Part shown: positions 3,958 through 53,837 of the stretch, piece after piece | How positions within the stretch are numbered: the first letter of the stretch is position 1 | Layout: each line of letters opens with the position of its first letter | Source of the DNA: a bacterium | GTDB taxonomy: Bacteria; Bdellovibrionota_C; UBA2361; SZUA-149; JAEUWB01 | Direction: 5' to 3' | Length of the DNA stretch: 64,000 nucleotides | NCBI GenBank assembly: GCA_016786595.1 | Contig: JAEUWB010000054.1 | Span: forward strand, 1-64,000 | Made by a program: the position numbers and the translations under genes | Notes under the pieces: model-generated | What the model saw: the letters and a program-made list of their open reading frames with translations, nothing else | Database searches by the model: none | What the model was told of the DNA's origin: nothing

Positions 3958-4018
3958 ACCTGCGTAGCAGGTTCGTTTTCCTTGGTCTTACCTTTCTTTT
4001 TCGTAAAAGAAAGGTAAG
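3958..4018 (-). repeat. Double-hairpin repeat, copy A (between rpsB and tsf)
   Basis: Read on the minus strand, a 14-bp perfect stem (CTTACCTTTCTTTT with its complement, loop ACGA; plus coordinates 3987-4018) is followed by the linker ACCAAGGAAAACGA and a second hairpin ACCTGC-TAC-GCAGGT (3958-3972). The same layout occurs at 19436-19726 and 27099-27269. The second hairpin here has a different stem sequence from the other copies but still pairs. It lies in the rpsB-tsf spacer, so it would be part of the operon mRNA. Confidence 0.8.
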
Positions 4019-7439: not shown

Positions 7440-7475
7440 CTATCCGATTTGGCACTCTATTTCCTATCCCTATTT

Positions 7476-8792
7476 GGTATGGGGTCTATTTGGTATGGGG
7501 TTACTTTTTTCAAACCACAAAGCAACATAGAGCCAAGAACGGCCGAAAATACTTATGTAAGCAAACTCATACATAAGGAGGCTCGTATGCCTAAAAACCC
7601 CAAGTGTTTTTTTAACAATACCGTCATAGAACTCTGCAGTAGCATTCAAGAAGGTCTACCTCTAGCAACAACAGCATATCTTGCTGTAATCATTGAGGGA
7701 ATTTTAGCAGCCGCAGCTAAGCAGTGTCCAGTAACCATTTGTCACTACATGTTCATGGGAAACCATTTCCATCTCATTGCAATCGTAAATAATCCTGAAG
7801 ATGTGCCTAGGTTCATGCGGTATATCAAATGTGAACTTAGCCACGCGATTAACCGGCTATTGGGCCGAAGTCAGCGTAACGTCTGGGTTTCTGATTATGA
7901 CTCAATAGTGATACTTGATTTAAGAAAAGCCCTAGAAAGGATTGCATATCTTTACCTAAATCCTGTCAGCGCAGATTTAGTCGAAAAAGTCTCTGAATAT
8001 CCGGGAGTCTCGAGTTATCAGGCCTTACTCAAAGGCCAAATGACTAAATCGTGCAAGAATGTTTCAAGAGATGCCATTCTACCGTTACCAGAAGCTGAAA
8101 TGAGTTTAGCAGCTCAGGCAGACTTTGCCGATTCGCTACTTAAGGGTAAGGGGAAGAAATATTCACTAACCGTATCACCGTGGGCTTTCTTAGCTTGCTT
8201 TAAGCGAGCTGATAATACTAGCGTTAAGCACTTCAAGGAAGAACTACTGAAGACCATAAGCGATCGCGAACATGGGCAAAAAATTAGACGCAAGCGGCCG
8301 GTCTTAGGGGCGCATGCACTCAAACTTCGAAGCATCAAAACTAGTTATTCATCCAAACGTTCAGGTCTAAAAATGTTTTGTATTTCTTCGAACGCTGAAC
8401 TTAGAACAGCCTTTATTACTTGGTTCAAAGATCGTGTTGTGTTCGCTCGTGAAGCATTCTTGGCATGGAAATTTGGTAACTTTCAGCTAAGACCTCCTCC
8501 AGGCTTTTTTTCGCCAGGTGGGAGTCTCCTAGCAAGCGCACTCCTACCTTTCCAAATCGCATAAGCGGCTTGATGAATCCTTACTGTGAAAAAAAGCTGA
8601 ACGCTTAGATAGACAGATTTGTCTAAATTTCCTTATTTACTTGGTATTTTTGTAGCTTATCAGTTGCTAGATACTAAAAATCGGGGGAATTGCACGTTCA
8701 TAAGTGGAAAGTCTGTGCTTCTTCAGGGCAGGATTGAGAAATTATGCTACATTTAACACTTTGCTCTAGTAGGAACCCCATACCTAGTAGGA
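7476..8792 (+). mobile_element. Possible RAYT unit with short flanking inverted repeats
   Basis: The transposase-like gene at 7587-8564 is bracketed by GGTATGGGGT (7476-7485, repeated at 7492-7501) and its exact reverse complement ACCCCATACC (8775-8784). The left copies sit in a 16-bp tandem repeat, and the right copy lies between two copies of CTAGTAGGA (8766-8774 and 8784-8792). This could mark the ends of a single-copy IS200/REP-type element. No target duplication is evident, and element mobility is unproven. Confidence 0.35.
7587..8564 (+). CDS. REP-associated tyrosine transposase-like (Y1_Tnp/RAYT) protein
   Basis: The 325-residue product shows the Y1 transposase core: a hydrophobic strand with MFMGNHFHLIAIV (the HUH-type His-x-His pair), then a helix containing FMRYIK and INRLLGRS, then WVSDYDSI and a YLYLNPVSADLV block typical of RAYT proteins. 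Where many RAYTs have the catalytic Tyr a few residues before the INR motif, I see Leu, so single-strand nicking activity is uncertain. I chose the ATG at 7587 because AAGGAGG lies 5 nt upstream; the reading frame is open further upstream but without such a site. The C-terminal ~120 residues are basic and unassigned. Confidence 0.75.
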   Translation: MPKNPKCFFNNTVIELCSSIQEGLPLATTAYLAVIIEGILAAAAKQCPVTICHYMFMGNHFHLIAIVNNPEDVPRFMRYIKCELSHAINRLLGRSQRNVWVSDYDSIVILDLRKALERIAYLYLNPVSADLVEKVSEYPGVSSYQALLKGQMTKSCKNVSRDAILPLPEAEMSLAAQADFADSLLKGKGKKYSLTVSPWAFLACFKRADNTSVKHFKEELLKTISDREHGQKIRRKRPVLGAHALKLRSIKTSYSSKRSGLKMFCISSNAELRTAFITWFKDRVVFAREAFLAWKFGNFQLRPPPGFFSPGGSLLASALLPFQIA

Positions 8793-13231: not shown

Positions 13232-13416
13232 GTGCTTTTCCTTATTTGTCATGCGCTGGGGAAACTACCTTAAAATCTCCACTTCACACAAGTCTTGCTT
13301 ATTTGGGCTCTGACTTTGGTAAATCTGAGTATGCGCTAGGTATTAATTGTTTTCAGATTAAAGTCGAAGGATTCTCTAATGCTTCTTTCTCGCGCCGTGT
13401 GTTCGGCAGAGCTACC

Positions 13417-14145
13417 CTAACTGTTGGCAACAAATTTATAGCCCACCCCATGAACTGTCAGGATGTGGCGGGGGCGATCCGGAATGTCTTCTAGTTTTTG
13501 GCGCAGGCGTGCGATGAAGTTATCGACAGTGCGAGTTGTGGGGTAACTATTGTAGCCCCAAACTTGATCGAGGAGCACATCGCGAGAGACTGGAATATCT
13601 TCATTTTTTGCAAGAAACTTGAGCAGTTCAAATTCCTTGGCTGAGAGTTCGAGTTCCTGTTGGCCGCGGCGTGCGCGATAAGACTTAAAATCAATTTCAA
13701 CAACACCAAAGTTAAGCTGTTCGACTGGTTTTTCTGTAGTCGGCGTAGCACTTTCTTGCTGTGGTCGGGCCTTAGCGCGGCGCAGTACAGCTTTAATGCG
13801 GGCGATTAGTTCTCGAATAGCAAAAGGTTTAGTGAGATAGTCATCGGCTCCAAGTTCGAGGCCTACAACTTTATCGATTTCGGCGCATTTCGCAGTAAGC
13901 ATAATGACTGGGATATCGTCGCGGCTTGAGCGAATATTGCGACAGACTTCAAGCCCATCCATTTCTGGCATCATTACGTCAAGAATCACGAGATCGGGAT
14001 TTTGAGCTTGGAATGCTTCAAGGCCGAGGCGGCCATTCTCGCAGGAGATCACTTCATAGCCTTCACATTTGAGGTTTTCTTCAAGACCCAGACGTACAAC
14101 TTCCTCGTCTTCGATAAGAAGTATTTTAGTTGCTGTTGCCGTCAT
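13417..14145 (-). CDS. OmpR/PhoB-family response regulator
   Basis: This 242-residue regulator has an intact receiver domain (acidic pair in LLIEDEEVV, phosphoacceptor Asp in VILDVMMPEMDG, conserved Lys in DYLTKPF). A linker of about 25 residues rich in Gln/Pro/Thr leads to a winged-helix DNA-binding domain (LSAKEFELLKFLAKN, then TRTVDNFIARLRQKL and HGVGYKF). It should bind promoter DNA after phosphorylation by a histidine kinase. No cognate kinase adjoins it; the hybrid kinase at 8807 is 3 kb away, so this may be an orphan pair. Confidence 0.92.
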   Translation of the reverse strand: MTATATKILLIEDEEVVRLGLEENLKCEGYEVISCENGRLGLEAFQAQNPDLVILDVMMPEMDGLEVCRNIRSSRDDIPVIMLTAKCAEIDKVVGLELGADDYLTKPFAIRELIARIKAVLRRAKARPQQESATPTTEKPVEQLNFGVVEIDFKSYRARRGQQELELSAKEFELLKFLAKNEDIPVSRDVLLDQVWGYNSYPTTRTVDNFIARLRQKLEDIPDRPRHILTVHGVGYKFVANS

Positions 14146-16879: not shown

Positions 16880-17500
16880 ATGCAGAATGAATTTTCTAGT
16901 TTCGACTCCAAATCCCTTCCCGCGAAAGAAATCTATAAATTAATGATTGGGTCGATTATTCCACGGCCAATTGCATTTATCACAACCATCAACACTTCCG
17001 GCTCAATTAACCTTGCGCCATTTAGCTATTTTAATGGCGTATCTAGTAGCCCACCATGTTTATCCGTCTCCTTTGCCGATAAACCAGATGACACAAAAAA
17101 AGATACGCTAAACAATATCCTACGCACAAAAGAATTCGTCGTGAATACGACAAGCGTTACAATGATTGATGCAGTTGCAGATTCAGCAGCGGACTATCCG
17201 GCAGAAGTAAGCGAACTCGATCTACTAAGCCTAGAAACACTACCTGCCGCACTGATTAAAACCCCACGCTTAAAAATTGCCCCCGTACAGATGGAGTGCA
17301 AACTTTATACAACGCTCGAGATTGGCCGAAATACGCTAGTGATCGGAGAGATCCTCATGTTCCATTGCCGCAGCGACTCATTTTCTGGCACTAAAAGTGA
17401 TGCTCAGCGGATTGACCCACTAGCTCGATTGGGCGGAGCAAATTACGCTACCATCGGTAAAATCATAAATCATCCGACTCCAGACGTTAAAACAAAGTAA
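16880..17500 (+). CDS. Flavin reductase-like FMN-binding split-barrel protein
   Basis: At 206 residues this is a typical member of the flavin reductase-like (DIM6/NTAB) family. The N-terminal half contains MIGSIIPRPIAFITT, INLAPFSYFNGVSSSPP and the KDTLNNI segment, which form the FMN-binding barrel in known members. The family includes flavin reductases and FMN-binding proteins, so the substrate cannot be read from sequence alone. It follows the ArnT-like gene at 9 nt spacing and is likely co-transcribed. Two perfect 17-bp repeats begin immediately after its stop. Confidence 0.85.
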   Translation: MQNEFSSFDSKSLPAKEIYKLMIGSIIPRPIAFITTINTSGSINLAPFSYFNGVSSSPPCLSVSFADKPDDTKKDTLNNILRTKEFVVNTTSVTMIDAVADSAADYPAEVSELDLLSLETLPAALIKTPRLKIAPVQMECKLYTTLEIGRNTLVIGEILMFHCRSDSFSGTKSDAQRIDPLARLGGANYATIGKIINHPTPDVKTK

Positions 17501-17534
17501 CCCCGTACCTTCGCCGACCCCGTACCTTCGCCGA
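17501..17534 (+). repeat. Perfect 17-bp tandem duplication
   Basis: CCCCGTACCTTCGCCGA occurs twice in direct succession, directly after the stop codon of the flavin-reductase-like gene. I did not find a third copy. It is probably a slippage product and is noted because another short repeat follows 8 nt later. Confidence 0.9.
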
Positions 17535-17541
17535 CAGCTCA

Positions 17542-17559
17542 AAAGTAGCCCCCCTACTT
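17542..17559 (+). repeat. 18-nt self-pairing motif shared with the 53.8 kb terminator
   Basis: AAAGTAGCCCCCCTACTT is identical to the left arm of the terminator-like hairpin at 53795-53837. Within the motif AAGTAG and CTACTT can pair around a five-C loop, so each arm is itself a mini-hairpin. Here the second, long-range arm is missing. It lies in the spacer before the export ATPase gene. Confidence 0.75.
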
Positions 17560-19435: not shown

Positions 19436-19726
19436 CTTACCTTTCTTTTACGGAAAAGAAAGGTAAGACCAAAGAAAACGAACCACTCCGTGGTTTGCCT
19501 CTTCCTAGCTACTGGCTAAATCACCAACTTAACCAAAGCTCACCTGCCACCTTTCCCTTCCTTCTACGGAAAAGAAAAGTAAGACCAAACACAACAAACC
19601 ACTCCGTGGTTTGCCCCTTCCTAGCTACTGGCAAATCACCAACTTAACCAAAGCTCACCTGCCACCTTTCCCTTCCTTCTACGGAAAAGAAAAGTAAGAC
19701 CAAACACAACAAACCACTCCGTGGTT
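19436..19726 (+). repeat. Double-hairpin repeat, tandem copies B, C and D (~115 bp unit)
   Basis: Three units start with a purine/pyrimidine hairpin and end with the hairpin AACCAC-TCC-GTGGTT at 19481-19495, 19597-19611 and 19712-19726, giving periods of 116 and 115 bp. Copy B has the full 14-bp first stem (19436-19449 with 19454-19467). In C and D the left arm has drifted (TTTCCCTTCCTTCT) while the right arm and second hairpin persist. The array fills most of the 413-nt spacer between the HTH gene and the helicase gene; I see no gene in it. Confidence 0.9.
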
Positions 19727-19768: not shown

Positions 19769-21178
19769 TTATATGTCTGTGCTAATCGCATCCGAAAGCG
19801 GCGGCCTTAGAATCTTACGCTTGGCCTCCTCCGCACGCTGCGCAAGCATCGGATGCGACTCGTAAAGACGCGTTAATTGATTAAGTTGATCTGCAGTCTG
19901 AGTAATCAACCGCGCGGCATCACCCTCCGCAACCCCATTCAAGAATAAATAACCACGGAAAACATTCCAATTTTCCGCCTGCATCCAAAGCATCACAGTA
20001 TATGCCGCAGACTCCGAGGCAACTCGCTCAGAACTCACCCCGGGCAAATTCTCCGCCTGAACACGTGCCACAATCGCACTGAGCGTTTCCAAATCCTTGT
20101 CACTGATTGCCCGGGACTTAGGTTCAAGATACCCACGCCGCGAATCTCCCGTAATCGCTCCAACCAACGCTGCTAAATATTCAGGTGAAGCATCCTGCAA
20201 AACTTTCGCTTCAATCAACTCCGCTAACTCTAGCACCAGACTCGTACAGAGATTCGATGACCAGTAACCTTTCTCAGAAAGCGTTAGGCCTTCAATAAAT
20301 CCAAGATTCTGCAATCCACGAATCGCAATCTGCAACAGTTCCTGCTGCTTTGTTTTTAGTTCAGCTGCTTCACGGTCAAGACGATTCGCCCGCTTTTCGA
20401 GCTTCTTCTTATGCTGCGAAGTAAGATCGGTCTGCCTTGCACCGCGCGCTCGCTCAGCTTCGGCTTCAAGATCCTTAGCCTGCTGTCGATCAAGAAAAGA
20501 AGCCAAACTGCGGTCAACTGTAAATTCAAGGTCATCGACATTTCTGTAACGCAATAAATTTAATACCGAACTAGGTCCAGGAAAATAAGACGACTTAAGC
20601 GGTTCTGCAGCACGTCGCGCCACCCGCGAAAGTTGGCGTGCATCACAATAAGGAGTTGGCGCAATCACACAAAACCCGACTGTATCTTTTCCCCGACGTC
20701 CCGCTCGACCAGACATTTGTTGAAACTCTGCCGCGGTAAGCTTCTGAAAGCCTTCACTGCCACGCTTGGAATGCGCAGTAATCACAACCGTGCGCGCAGG
20801 GAAATCTACTCCCGCAGCCACTGTTCCAGTTGCAATCAAAATTCTCAACAGGCCCGCACTCATCAACTCTTCGAGCAGCAAACGCCAAACTAGCAGTTGT
20901 CCCGCATGATGCGCTCCGACACCAGCTTGCACCAGCGACTCATACTGCGGATGCGAAGTAATCAGATCTAAATCAATCTCACTACTTCTGGCAAATTCTT
21001 GGACTTTCGCTAATAGCGCAGCTTTATCCGTGCGACTAAATTCAAGACGCTGATTGCGACCCGCCTGCATTACATCACGATCACATTGGTCCCGCGACGT
21101 GCGAAAAACGATTGCCGGTAGCAAATCTGCATTTTCCAGTTCAACAAAAATTTGAGCAATCGAGATATCAGAGCGCAT
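19769..21178 (-). CDS. C-terminal half of a Ski2-like RNA helicase (RecA2 and accessory domains)
   Basis: The 469-residue product begins directly in the second helicase domain with LLPAIVFRTSRDQCD. It continues through VGAHHAGQL, IATGTVAAGVDFPARTVV and the motif VI block FQQMSGRAGRRGKDTVG, all typical of Ski2/Mtr4-type superfamily 2 helicases. A helical, charged region (about 230-290) and a C-terminal winged-helix/ratchet-like region follow. Motifs I and II are missing; they are in the preceding gene, which ends 2 nt upstream in another frame. The two together look like one helicase of about 725 residues. The product may assemble with its neighbour or be the remnant of a frameshift. Confidence 0.8.
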   Translation of the reverse strand: MRSDISIAQIFVELENADLLPAIVFRTSRDQCDRDVMQAGRNQRLEFSRTDKAALLAKVQEFARSSEIDLDLITSHPQYESLVQAGVGAHHAGQLLVWRLLLEELMSAGLLRILIATGTVAAGVDFPARTVVITAHSKRGSEGFQKLTAAEFQQMSGRAGRRGKDTVGFCVIAPTPYCDARQLSRVARRAAEPLKSSYFPGPSSVLNLLRYRNVDDLEFTVDRSLASFLDRQQAKDLEAEAERARGARQTDLTSQHKKKLEKRANRLDREAAELKTKQQELLQIAIRGLQNLGFIEGLTLSEKGYWSSNLCTSLVLELAELIEAKVLQDASPEYLAALVGAITGDSRRGYLEPKSRAISDKDLETLSAIVARVQAENLPGVSSERVASESAAYTVMLWMQAENWNVFRGYLFLNGVAEGDAARLITQTADQLNQLTRLYESHPMLAQRAEEAKRKILRPPLSDAISTDI

Positions 21179-27098: not shown

Positions 27099-27269
27099 CT
27101 TACCTTTCTTTTACGGAAAAGAAAGGTAAGACCAAAGAAAACGAACCACTCCGTGGTTTTCCACTTCCTATCCATCAACTACGCGCCAGCACCAACCAAA
27201 AAACCGCACCTCGCCGCCTTTCTTTACAAAAAAGAAAGGTAAGACCAAAGAAAACGAACCACTTCGTGG
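27099..27269 (+). repeat. Double-hairpin repeat, copies E and F (upstream of guaB)
   Basis: Copy E has the perfect 14-bp first stem (27099-27112 with 27117-27130, loop ACGG), the linker ACCAAAGAAAACGA and the second hairpin AACCAC-TCC-GTGGTT (27144-27158). Copy F has a shorter first stem (CCTTTCTTT with AAAGAAAGG, 27217-27239), the same linker and CCAC-TTC-GTGG (27259-27269). The second hairpins are 115 bp apart, the same period as at 19.4-19.7 kb, and the spacer between them resembles the spacer there. It lies between guaB and der. Confidence 0.88.
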
Positions 27270-32623: not shown

Positions 32624-32730
32624 ACTTAGGCTTAGGCTTGAACTTATACTTAATCTTATCCTTTCCCTTTTTCAAAAAAGGGAAGAGTTAAAGGTTAAGG
32701 GGAAGTATAAGTTCAAGCCTAAGTCTAAGT
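32624..32730. repeat. Long inverted repeat with 28-bp arms downstream of rnc
   Basis: The arms 32624-32651 and 32703-32730 match at 27 of 28 positions and enclose a second hairpin (TTCCCTTTTT with AAAAAGGGAA around 32663-32684). It begins 20 nt beyond the rnc stop codon on the minus strand, so it could end that operon's transcript or protect its 3' end. Part of the arm (CTTAGGCTTGAACTT, 32631-32645) recurs at 56207-56221, so this belongs to a second dispersed repeat family. Confidence 0.8.
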
Positions 32731-32750
32731 AATGAAGCCGAAGCAATGCT

Positions 32751-53794: not shown

Positions 53795-53837
53795 AAAGTA
53801 GCCCCCCTACTTCTAAAAAAAGTAGGGGGGCTACTTT
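53795..53837. terminator. Bidirectional terminator hairpin with 18-bp stem
   Basis: AAAGTAGCCCCCCTACTT (53795-53812) pairs perfectly with 53820-53837 around a 7-nt A-rich loop and is followed by T on both sides. It separates two convergent genes (M48 peptidase and Cys-repeat protein). The left arm is identical to the isolated motif at 17542-17559, so this terminator belongs to a repeated family. Confidence 0.85.

Follow-up and report, generated by a model that had tools for sequence, protein, structure and literature searches.

A mirror-patterned, AT-rich hairpin repeat at gene ends in a Bdellovibrionota_C genome: a candidate class II intrastrand-triplex DNA element

The window, that is the whole 64,000-nucleotide stretch of contig JAEUWB010000054.1 analysed here, carries six copies of a structured repeat in three spacers: one (A) between rpsB and tsf, three (B-D) separating a 97-aa minus-strand ORF from the 3' end of a minus-strand DSHCT-domain helicase gene (stop at 19769), and two (E and F) between a der-like GTPase gene and guaB. 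All six are present where the original prediction had placed them, and the core pattern, with 6 matches in the window, is matched 0.10 times in shuffles. The features are as follows.

3958..4018, minus strand: copy A, in the rpsB-tsf spacer, 7 nt past the rpsB stop and codirectional with it
4018-3987, minus strand: hairpin 1 of copy A, a perfect 14-bp stem
3986-3973, minus strand: third-strand linker of copy A (putative), one mismatch
3972-3958, minus strand: hairpin 2 of copy A, ACCTGC-TAC-GCAGGT
13376..13395, minus strand: possible remnant of an array module (GCGCGAGAAAGAAGCATTAG), directly after the stop of ORF 13417-14145; weak
19436..19467, plus strand: hairpin 1 of copy B (pyrimidine arm, loop ACGG, purine arm), 14 bp
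19468..19481, plus strand: linker of copy B, the putative reverse-Hoogsteen (third) strand; AAAGAAAA mirrors the purine arm AAAAGAAA
19482..19494, plus strand: hairpin 2 of copy B, ACCAC-TCC-GTGGT
19518..19619, plus strand: copy C unit, hairpin 1 interrupted, linker altered to ACCAAACACAACAA
19633..19734, plus strand: copy D unit, 99% identical to C
27099..27157, plus strand: copy E, ~35 bp before the guaB ATG, guaB being on the minus strand
27099-27130, plus strand: hairpin 1 of copy E, a perfect 14-bp stem
27131-27144, plus strand: linker of copy E, a perfect third strand (putative)
27145-27157, plus strand: hairpin 2 of copy E
27217..27269, plus strand: copy F, hairpin 1 of ~9-10 bp, linker intact, hairpin 2 CCAC-TTC-GTGG

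The copies differ in preservation. The original prediction gave every copy a first hairpin, yet the full 14-bp stem is found in A, B and E only, being eroded in C, D and F, and its folding energy as RNA is -15.7 kcal/mol in C and D against -23.6 to -26.4 kcal/mol in A, B and E. The linker had been described as constant but for one change in A, which is correct for A and for B, E and F (ACCAAAGAAAACGA) but not for C and D, where it carries three changes (ACCAAACACAACAA); similarly, the tandem spacing of 115-116 bp expected at both multi-copy sites applies to B-D (116 and 115 bp) but not to E-F (113 bp). Over 102 nt, copies C and D share 99% identity, so that they represent one recent tandem duplication; B and C are only 71% alike. 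The swap in hairpin 2 from ACCAC/GTGGT to ACCTGC/GCAGGT, earlier taken as conserved pairing, is real but constitutes a single event in the window, and this hairpin is not a defining part of the element because several further sites in the genome lack it or have a different one. The remnant at 13376..13395 is considered weak because a comparable match arose in 20 of 100 shuffles.

The assembly (2.58 Mb in 60 contigs, ~97% complete) was inventoried by pattern and covariance-model searches, which located about 20 full hairpin-1 sites, two of them (on contigs C59 and C53) not used in building the model. A related hairpin module, AAAGAAAGCGGTAAGCTTTCTTT, is present in 23 copies, often arrayed; contigs C20 and C52 begin inside arrays, and site C58 is nested in a longer inverted repeat. 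Across 18 of the genomic sites, 99.6% of 258 cells of hairpin 1 are paired, with two-sided changes in 7 of 15 pairs and one-sided changes in none; doubly changed cells number 49, compared with 16.9 +/- 2.8 after shuffling, and this covariation is register-specific, the signal being lost on sliding the partner. The proposal of an amplified structured element with conserved pairing is thus upheld by many copies and strong two-sided covariation; the outcome named beforehand as evidence against it, few other copies and no covariation, was not obtained. The stem takes in all or part of the stop codon at three sites, so that its right arm matches the gene's own end. It may be that hairpin-templated correction of imperfect palindromes could produce such perfect pairing without selection on RNA. 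Low-complexity chance or an assembly artefact, which the A-rich sequence and its simple runs might suggest, deserves practically no credence: dinucleotide shuffles rarely reproduce the pattern, backward-read control patterns gave 0 core matches in this genome, the model found the held-out sites, and independent copies occur in other lineages, controls which together refute this explanation.

The host genome is the sole member of its family in the genome collection compared. Neither the 14 other genomes compared from its order nor a further 45 from the phylum yielded a close copy; a model (R1) recovered one more distant relative of a different family in the same class (G021), with several clear matches, as well as weak single matches in three more genomes. 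A search of GTDB genome contigs for the exact core returned only 3 matches, each without the hairpin and taken as chance. Matches to a short-stem pattern (CTTCTTTG..CAAAGAAG) were mostly chance coding matches without the linker, and patterns fixed on linker plus spacer likewise gave mostly chance matches. Rfam at the curated gathering score had no match in the window, and at related loci, even at E 5, nothing covering the hairpin-linker core.

The element is placed tightly with respect to gene ends. According to the ORF and tRNA maps, 14 of the 20 sites in this genome have their start between positions -4 and +7 nt relative to a codirectional 3' end, that of a coding sequence in 8 cases (rpsB and hisS included) and of a tRNA gene in 6, whereas ~2.7% of random intergenic positions would be expected to sit so (binomial 3e-18). 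An overlap of 1-4 nt between hairpin 1 and the stop codon or tRNA end is common, and each of the three sites examined in G021 starts where a tRNA-Ala gene ends. The window itself holds exceptions to this codirectional gene-end rule, since B-D and E-F both run opposite to transcription, copy E because guaB is on the minus strand. At C53:34092 (L511) the element is preceded by GGCTCCA, which resembles a tRNA-Ala 3' end and may have been copied from one; the end of the actual tRNA-Ala gene lies 120 nt upstream.

The key feature, overlooked in the original prediction, is that the linker mirrors the purine arm of hairpin 1: when A-run lengths are counted outward from the loop, arm and linker are mirror images. 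This is observed in the window type (AAAAGAAA / AAAGAAAA), in the array type (GAAAGAAAAA / AAAAAGAAAG) and in the other subtypes of this genome, (4,3|3,4), (3,5|5,3) and (4,5|5,4). A viral contig collection was scanned with palindromes of varied run lengths, the linker runs being left unconstrained, and 27 of the 29 unequal-armed stems followed by such a linker were mirrored, with 1 in direct order; permuting linkers among elements gave a mean of 6.6 and a maximum of 15 mirrored, in counts that include related sequences and with a permutation uncorrected for shared ancestry. The succession of pyrimidine arm, purine arm and mirrored purine tract on one strand is that of class II purine-motif intrastrand triplexes, known as potential intrastrand triplex (PIT) elements or ITxF motifs (Holder et al, 2015, PMC4666352, citing Hoyne et al, 2000). 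Under the class II triplet criterion (at least 8 triplets of A.A-T or G.G-C), copies B and E each form a perfect 8, A has one mismatch, and C and D fall short; the 2 perfect motifs of the window (B and E) compare with 0.017 per shuffled window, and the type II motif of this genome has 10 perfect triplets. Type II loops, of 4 and 6 nt, lie within both the ITxF limit of 1-6 nt and the Hoyne limit of 0-10 nt, and those of the window type I, of 4 and 9 nt, within the Hoyne limit only (limits from PMC4666352).

Intergenic elements of the same layout are found in replicons of Paraburkholderia, Caballeronia, Burkholderia, Variovorax, Pseudoalteromonas, Aeromonas, Pasteurella and Ilyobacter; Burkholderiales and Fusobacteriota are among the groups represented. 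Both here and among the viral contigs, pairing tends to arise between the loop and the nucleotides that immediately follow the linker (TCGCC/GGCGA, GTGGCC/GGCCAC and AGACCC/GGGTCT are examples). Among 48 elements of other lineages the mean pairing is 3.92 bp, against 2.61 +/- 0.12 with permuted tails (maximum 3.04 of 5000), again uncorrected for shared ancestry; in the window's own genome it is only 2-3 bp, and a pseudoknot was rejected for the window copies, whose loop and tail share just 2 bp. A few IMG/VR contigs carry the motif, but consensus queries against 50,697 phage records gave no match covering at least 80% of it; the IMG/VR carriers therefore probably hold host or prophage DNA, and a phage origin was rejected on that search. 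In Pseudoalteromonas, Aeromonas and Burkholderia loci, the Rfam families TwoAYGGAY (RF01731) and Bp1_684 (RF02421), the latter a Burkholderia sRNA, have matches directly beside this kind of hairpin (L124 1395-1506; L119, L120), extending over neighbouring hairpins and no further than the left arm, so that the hairpin-linker core is left uncovered. Because they adjoin the hairpin, these families may belong to larger repeat islands and not be RNAs in their own right.

The placement at gene and tRNA 3' ends also suits an RNA-level 3'-end element, in which the transcribed hairpin would terminate transcription, block 3' exonucleases or signal processing, while the A-rich linker would run alongside the helix in the manner of H-type pseudoknots. 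The very stable RNA folding of A, B, E and F (z -3.8 to -6.8) is consistent with this, as are the loop-tail pairing outside this genome, which has the H-type pseudoknot topology, and the minus-strand hairpin 2 followed by CGTTTTCTTT, which is terminator-like in B, E and F. However, no U tract follows hairpin 1 on either strand; an intrinsic terminator was rejected for this hairpin, an AT-rich stem followed by A-rich sequence, and only hairpin 2 on the minus strand, with 3 G-C pairs, scores as terminator-like. The 258 cells without a single one-sided (G-U) change would be unusual for a conserved RNA helix, the orientation of B-D and E-F is wrong for a 3' end, loop-tail pairing in this genome is confined to 2-3 bp, and A-minor contacts need no mirror repeat with a matched G position. 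Purine-motif triplexes fold in single-stranded DNA in vitro and reportedly cannot form in RNA (PMC4666352). Since the mirror repeat is the signature of such a DNA triplex, the repeated RNA motif offered by the original prediction is not the best reading, and we regard an RNA 3'-end element as unlikely, though its role would be compatible with a triplex.

It can also be proposed that the repeat is a non-autonomous mobile palindrome of the REP or MITE kind, the hairpin serving as a transposition substrate and the gene-end position reflecting target choice or tolerated insertion. Such mobility would account for the ~20 dispersed full sites and the arrays, for the lack of close copies in nearly all relatives, and for the inverted pairs bounding ~0.4-0.6 kb units in Paraburkholderia, Pasteurella and Variovorax; site C58, within its longer inverted repeat, and six Y1-type transposase genes in the genome point the same way. 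In Paraburkholderia, 46 motif matches were counted on one 2-Mb replicon, largely as inverted pairs ~0.5 kb apart, and the 2-Mb replicon of Paraburkholderia caribensis (L123, L131-L154) shows many palindromic islands of 0.5-0.6 kb bounded by inverted triplex-type motifs and GC hairpins. The element shares with REP/BIME sequences and their RAYT a dispersed extragenic palindromic nature, arrays and genome-specific families, but no RAYT gene adjoins it and REP sequences are not characterised by a mirrored third tract; a RAYT-driven REP was rejected, as none of the six Y1_Tnp genes adjoins an element, the nearest lying 3.6 kb away, in the window. Moreover, an overlap of 1-4 nt with a stop codon or tRNA end is odd for an insertion, and mobility alone does not predict the mirror rule. 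A mobile palindrome is accordingly given a low probability as the explanation, while a mobile role may coexist with triplex formation.

One of the six transposase genes, of the Y1 (IS200-like) type, occupies 7449-8564 of the window (plus strand), with GGTATGGGGT repeats at 7476, 7492 and 8775, at both of its ends; gene and repeats are probably the genome's real RAYT/REP-like system, separate from the triplex-type element. A short tandem GGTACGGGGT at 17500-17526 (minus strand), directly after ORF 16880-17500, resembles these transposase-side repeats. Another repeat, AAAGTAGCCCCCCTACTT, is single at 17542-17559 and forms a large palindrome on both strands at 53795-53837 (3 matches, 0.01 expected). 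Period-like GCTTGAACTT...CTTAACCTT palindromes lie near element arrays (~32660-32750; L103, L098, L094), and the copy at 32663 also scores as a class II triplex motif with one mismatch. A GTCATTGCGAGG...CGTGGCAATC-type intergenic repeat, which we take to be very common in unrelated bacteria, is found near several element arrays (L076, L099, L116).

The preferred reading, a DNA triplex repeat, rests on the likeness to class II PIT and ITxF motifs: the same strand order (pyrimidine, purine, reverse-Hoogsteen), the same triplets, an intergenic, multi-copy distribution with inverted pairs at times, and a stem of 8-10 triplets. The differences are that the present element is AT-rich where theirs are GC-rich, that its window-type spacer is 9 nt (ITxF limit 6, Hoyne limit 10), that it is tightly placed at gene and tRNA 3' ends, and that stem and third strand vary together; in other lineages the loop also pairs with the tail. 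A purine-motif triplex that is A-rich should be weaker than a G-rich one. The best-studied class II motif, E. coli BoxC or TMECO, is likewise structured, intergenic and dispersed; its consensus is CCCTCNCCC-N3-6-GGGNGAGGG-N3-GGGNGAGGG (PMC4666352). Membership of TMECO/BoxC was rejected, the AT-rich arms departing from this GC-rich consensus, and a search of 5,426 E. coli genomes with the consensus of a related AT-rich form found no match. For BoxC/TMECO itself, a block to DNA polymerase in vitro and an association with genetically unstable loci have been reported; earlier tests detected neither promoter nor terminator activity, its distance from genes follows no trend, no function is assigned to it, and a stable triplex was not observed in vivo (PMC4666352). 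The statement that no described family has this layout needs amending in that hairpin 1 and linker fit the published class II PIT arrangement, and it stands in that the AT-rich gene-end family is absent from PMC4666352, whose main text nowhere mentions tRNA, stop codons, pseudoknots or covariation; looking up the literature by sequence strings gave nothing relevant. New relative to the known class II kind are the AT-richness, the placement at gene and tRNA 3' ends and the evolutionary evidence for the third strand from several phyla.

Layout, copy number, covariation, mirror rule, gene-end placement and arrays are established. Reasoning from sequence, we propose that the repeat is an AT-rich class II potential intrastrand-triplex DNA family that has been amplified in this lineage and acts at the ends of genes, and we give this reading, mechanism included, a probability of roughly 0.55; the mechanism alone is less secure than the DNA-triplex identity. 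The element strand would become single when it is the coding strand behind RNA polymerase, the lagging strand, or a strand under repair. The first two arms would then pair as hairpin 1, and the third tract could return in antiparallel orientation onto the purine arm, giving A.A-T and G.G-C triplets in the cell. Such a triplex may constitute a DNA-level block or pause for polymerases at gene ends, as punctuation or insulation, and the same stalling might favour slippage and hence tandem arrays; the C-D duplication and the contigs that start inside arrays fit local instability. The triplex reading is weakened by the eroded copies C, D and F and by the orientation of B-D and E-F against transcription. 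It is further weakened by the pyrimidine arm that follows the linker at many sites of this genome, on account of which the third tract is able to pair instead as a second hairpin.

It can be hypothesised, more tentatively and on comparative grounds, that these repeats represent a widespread, unnamed class of bacterial DNA element, a one-strand triplex locked by a pseudoknot and made up of stem, mirrored third strand and loop-tail pairing, in which selection would act on all three strands, as triplet covariation across phyla suggests, and which some lineages might use to punctuate the exact 3' ends of genes and tRNAs. The finding bears on whether triplex-forming repeats matter to bacteria: joint change of stem and third strand in several phyla is evidence from evolution that the triplex arrangement itself has been retained. 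The gene- and tRNA-end placement offers a concrete, testable candidate job for the element, and dispersed hairpins that are easily filed as RNA motifs can be DNA-structure elements.
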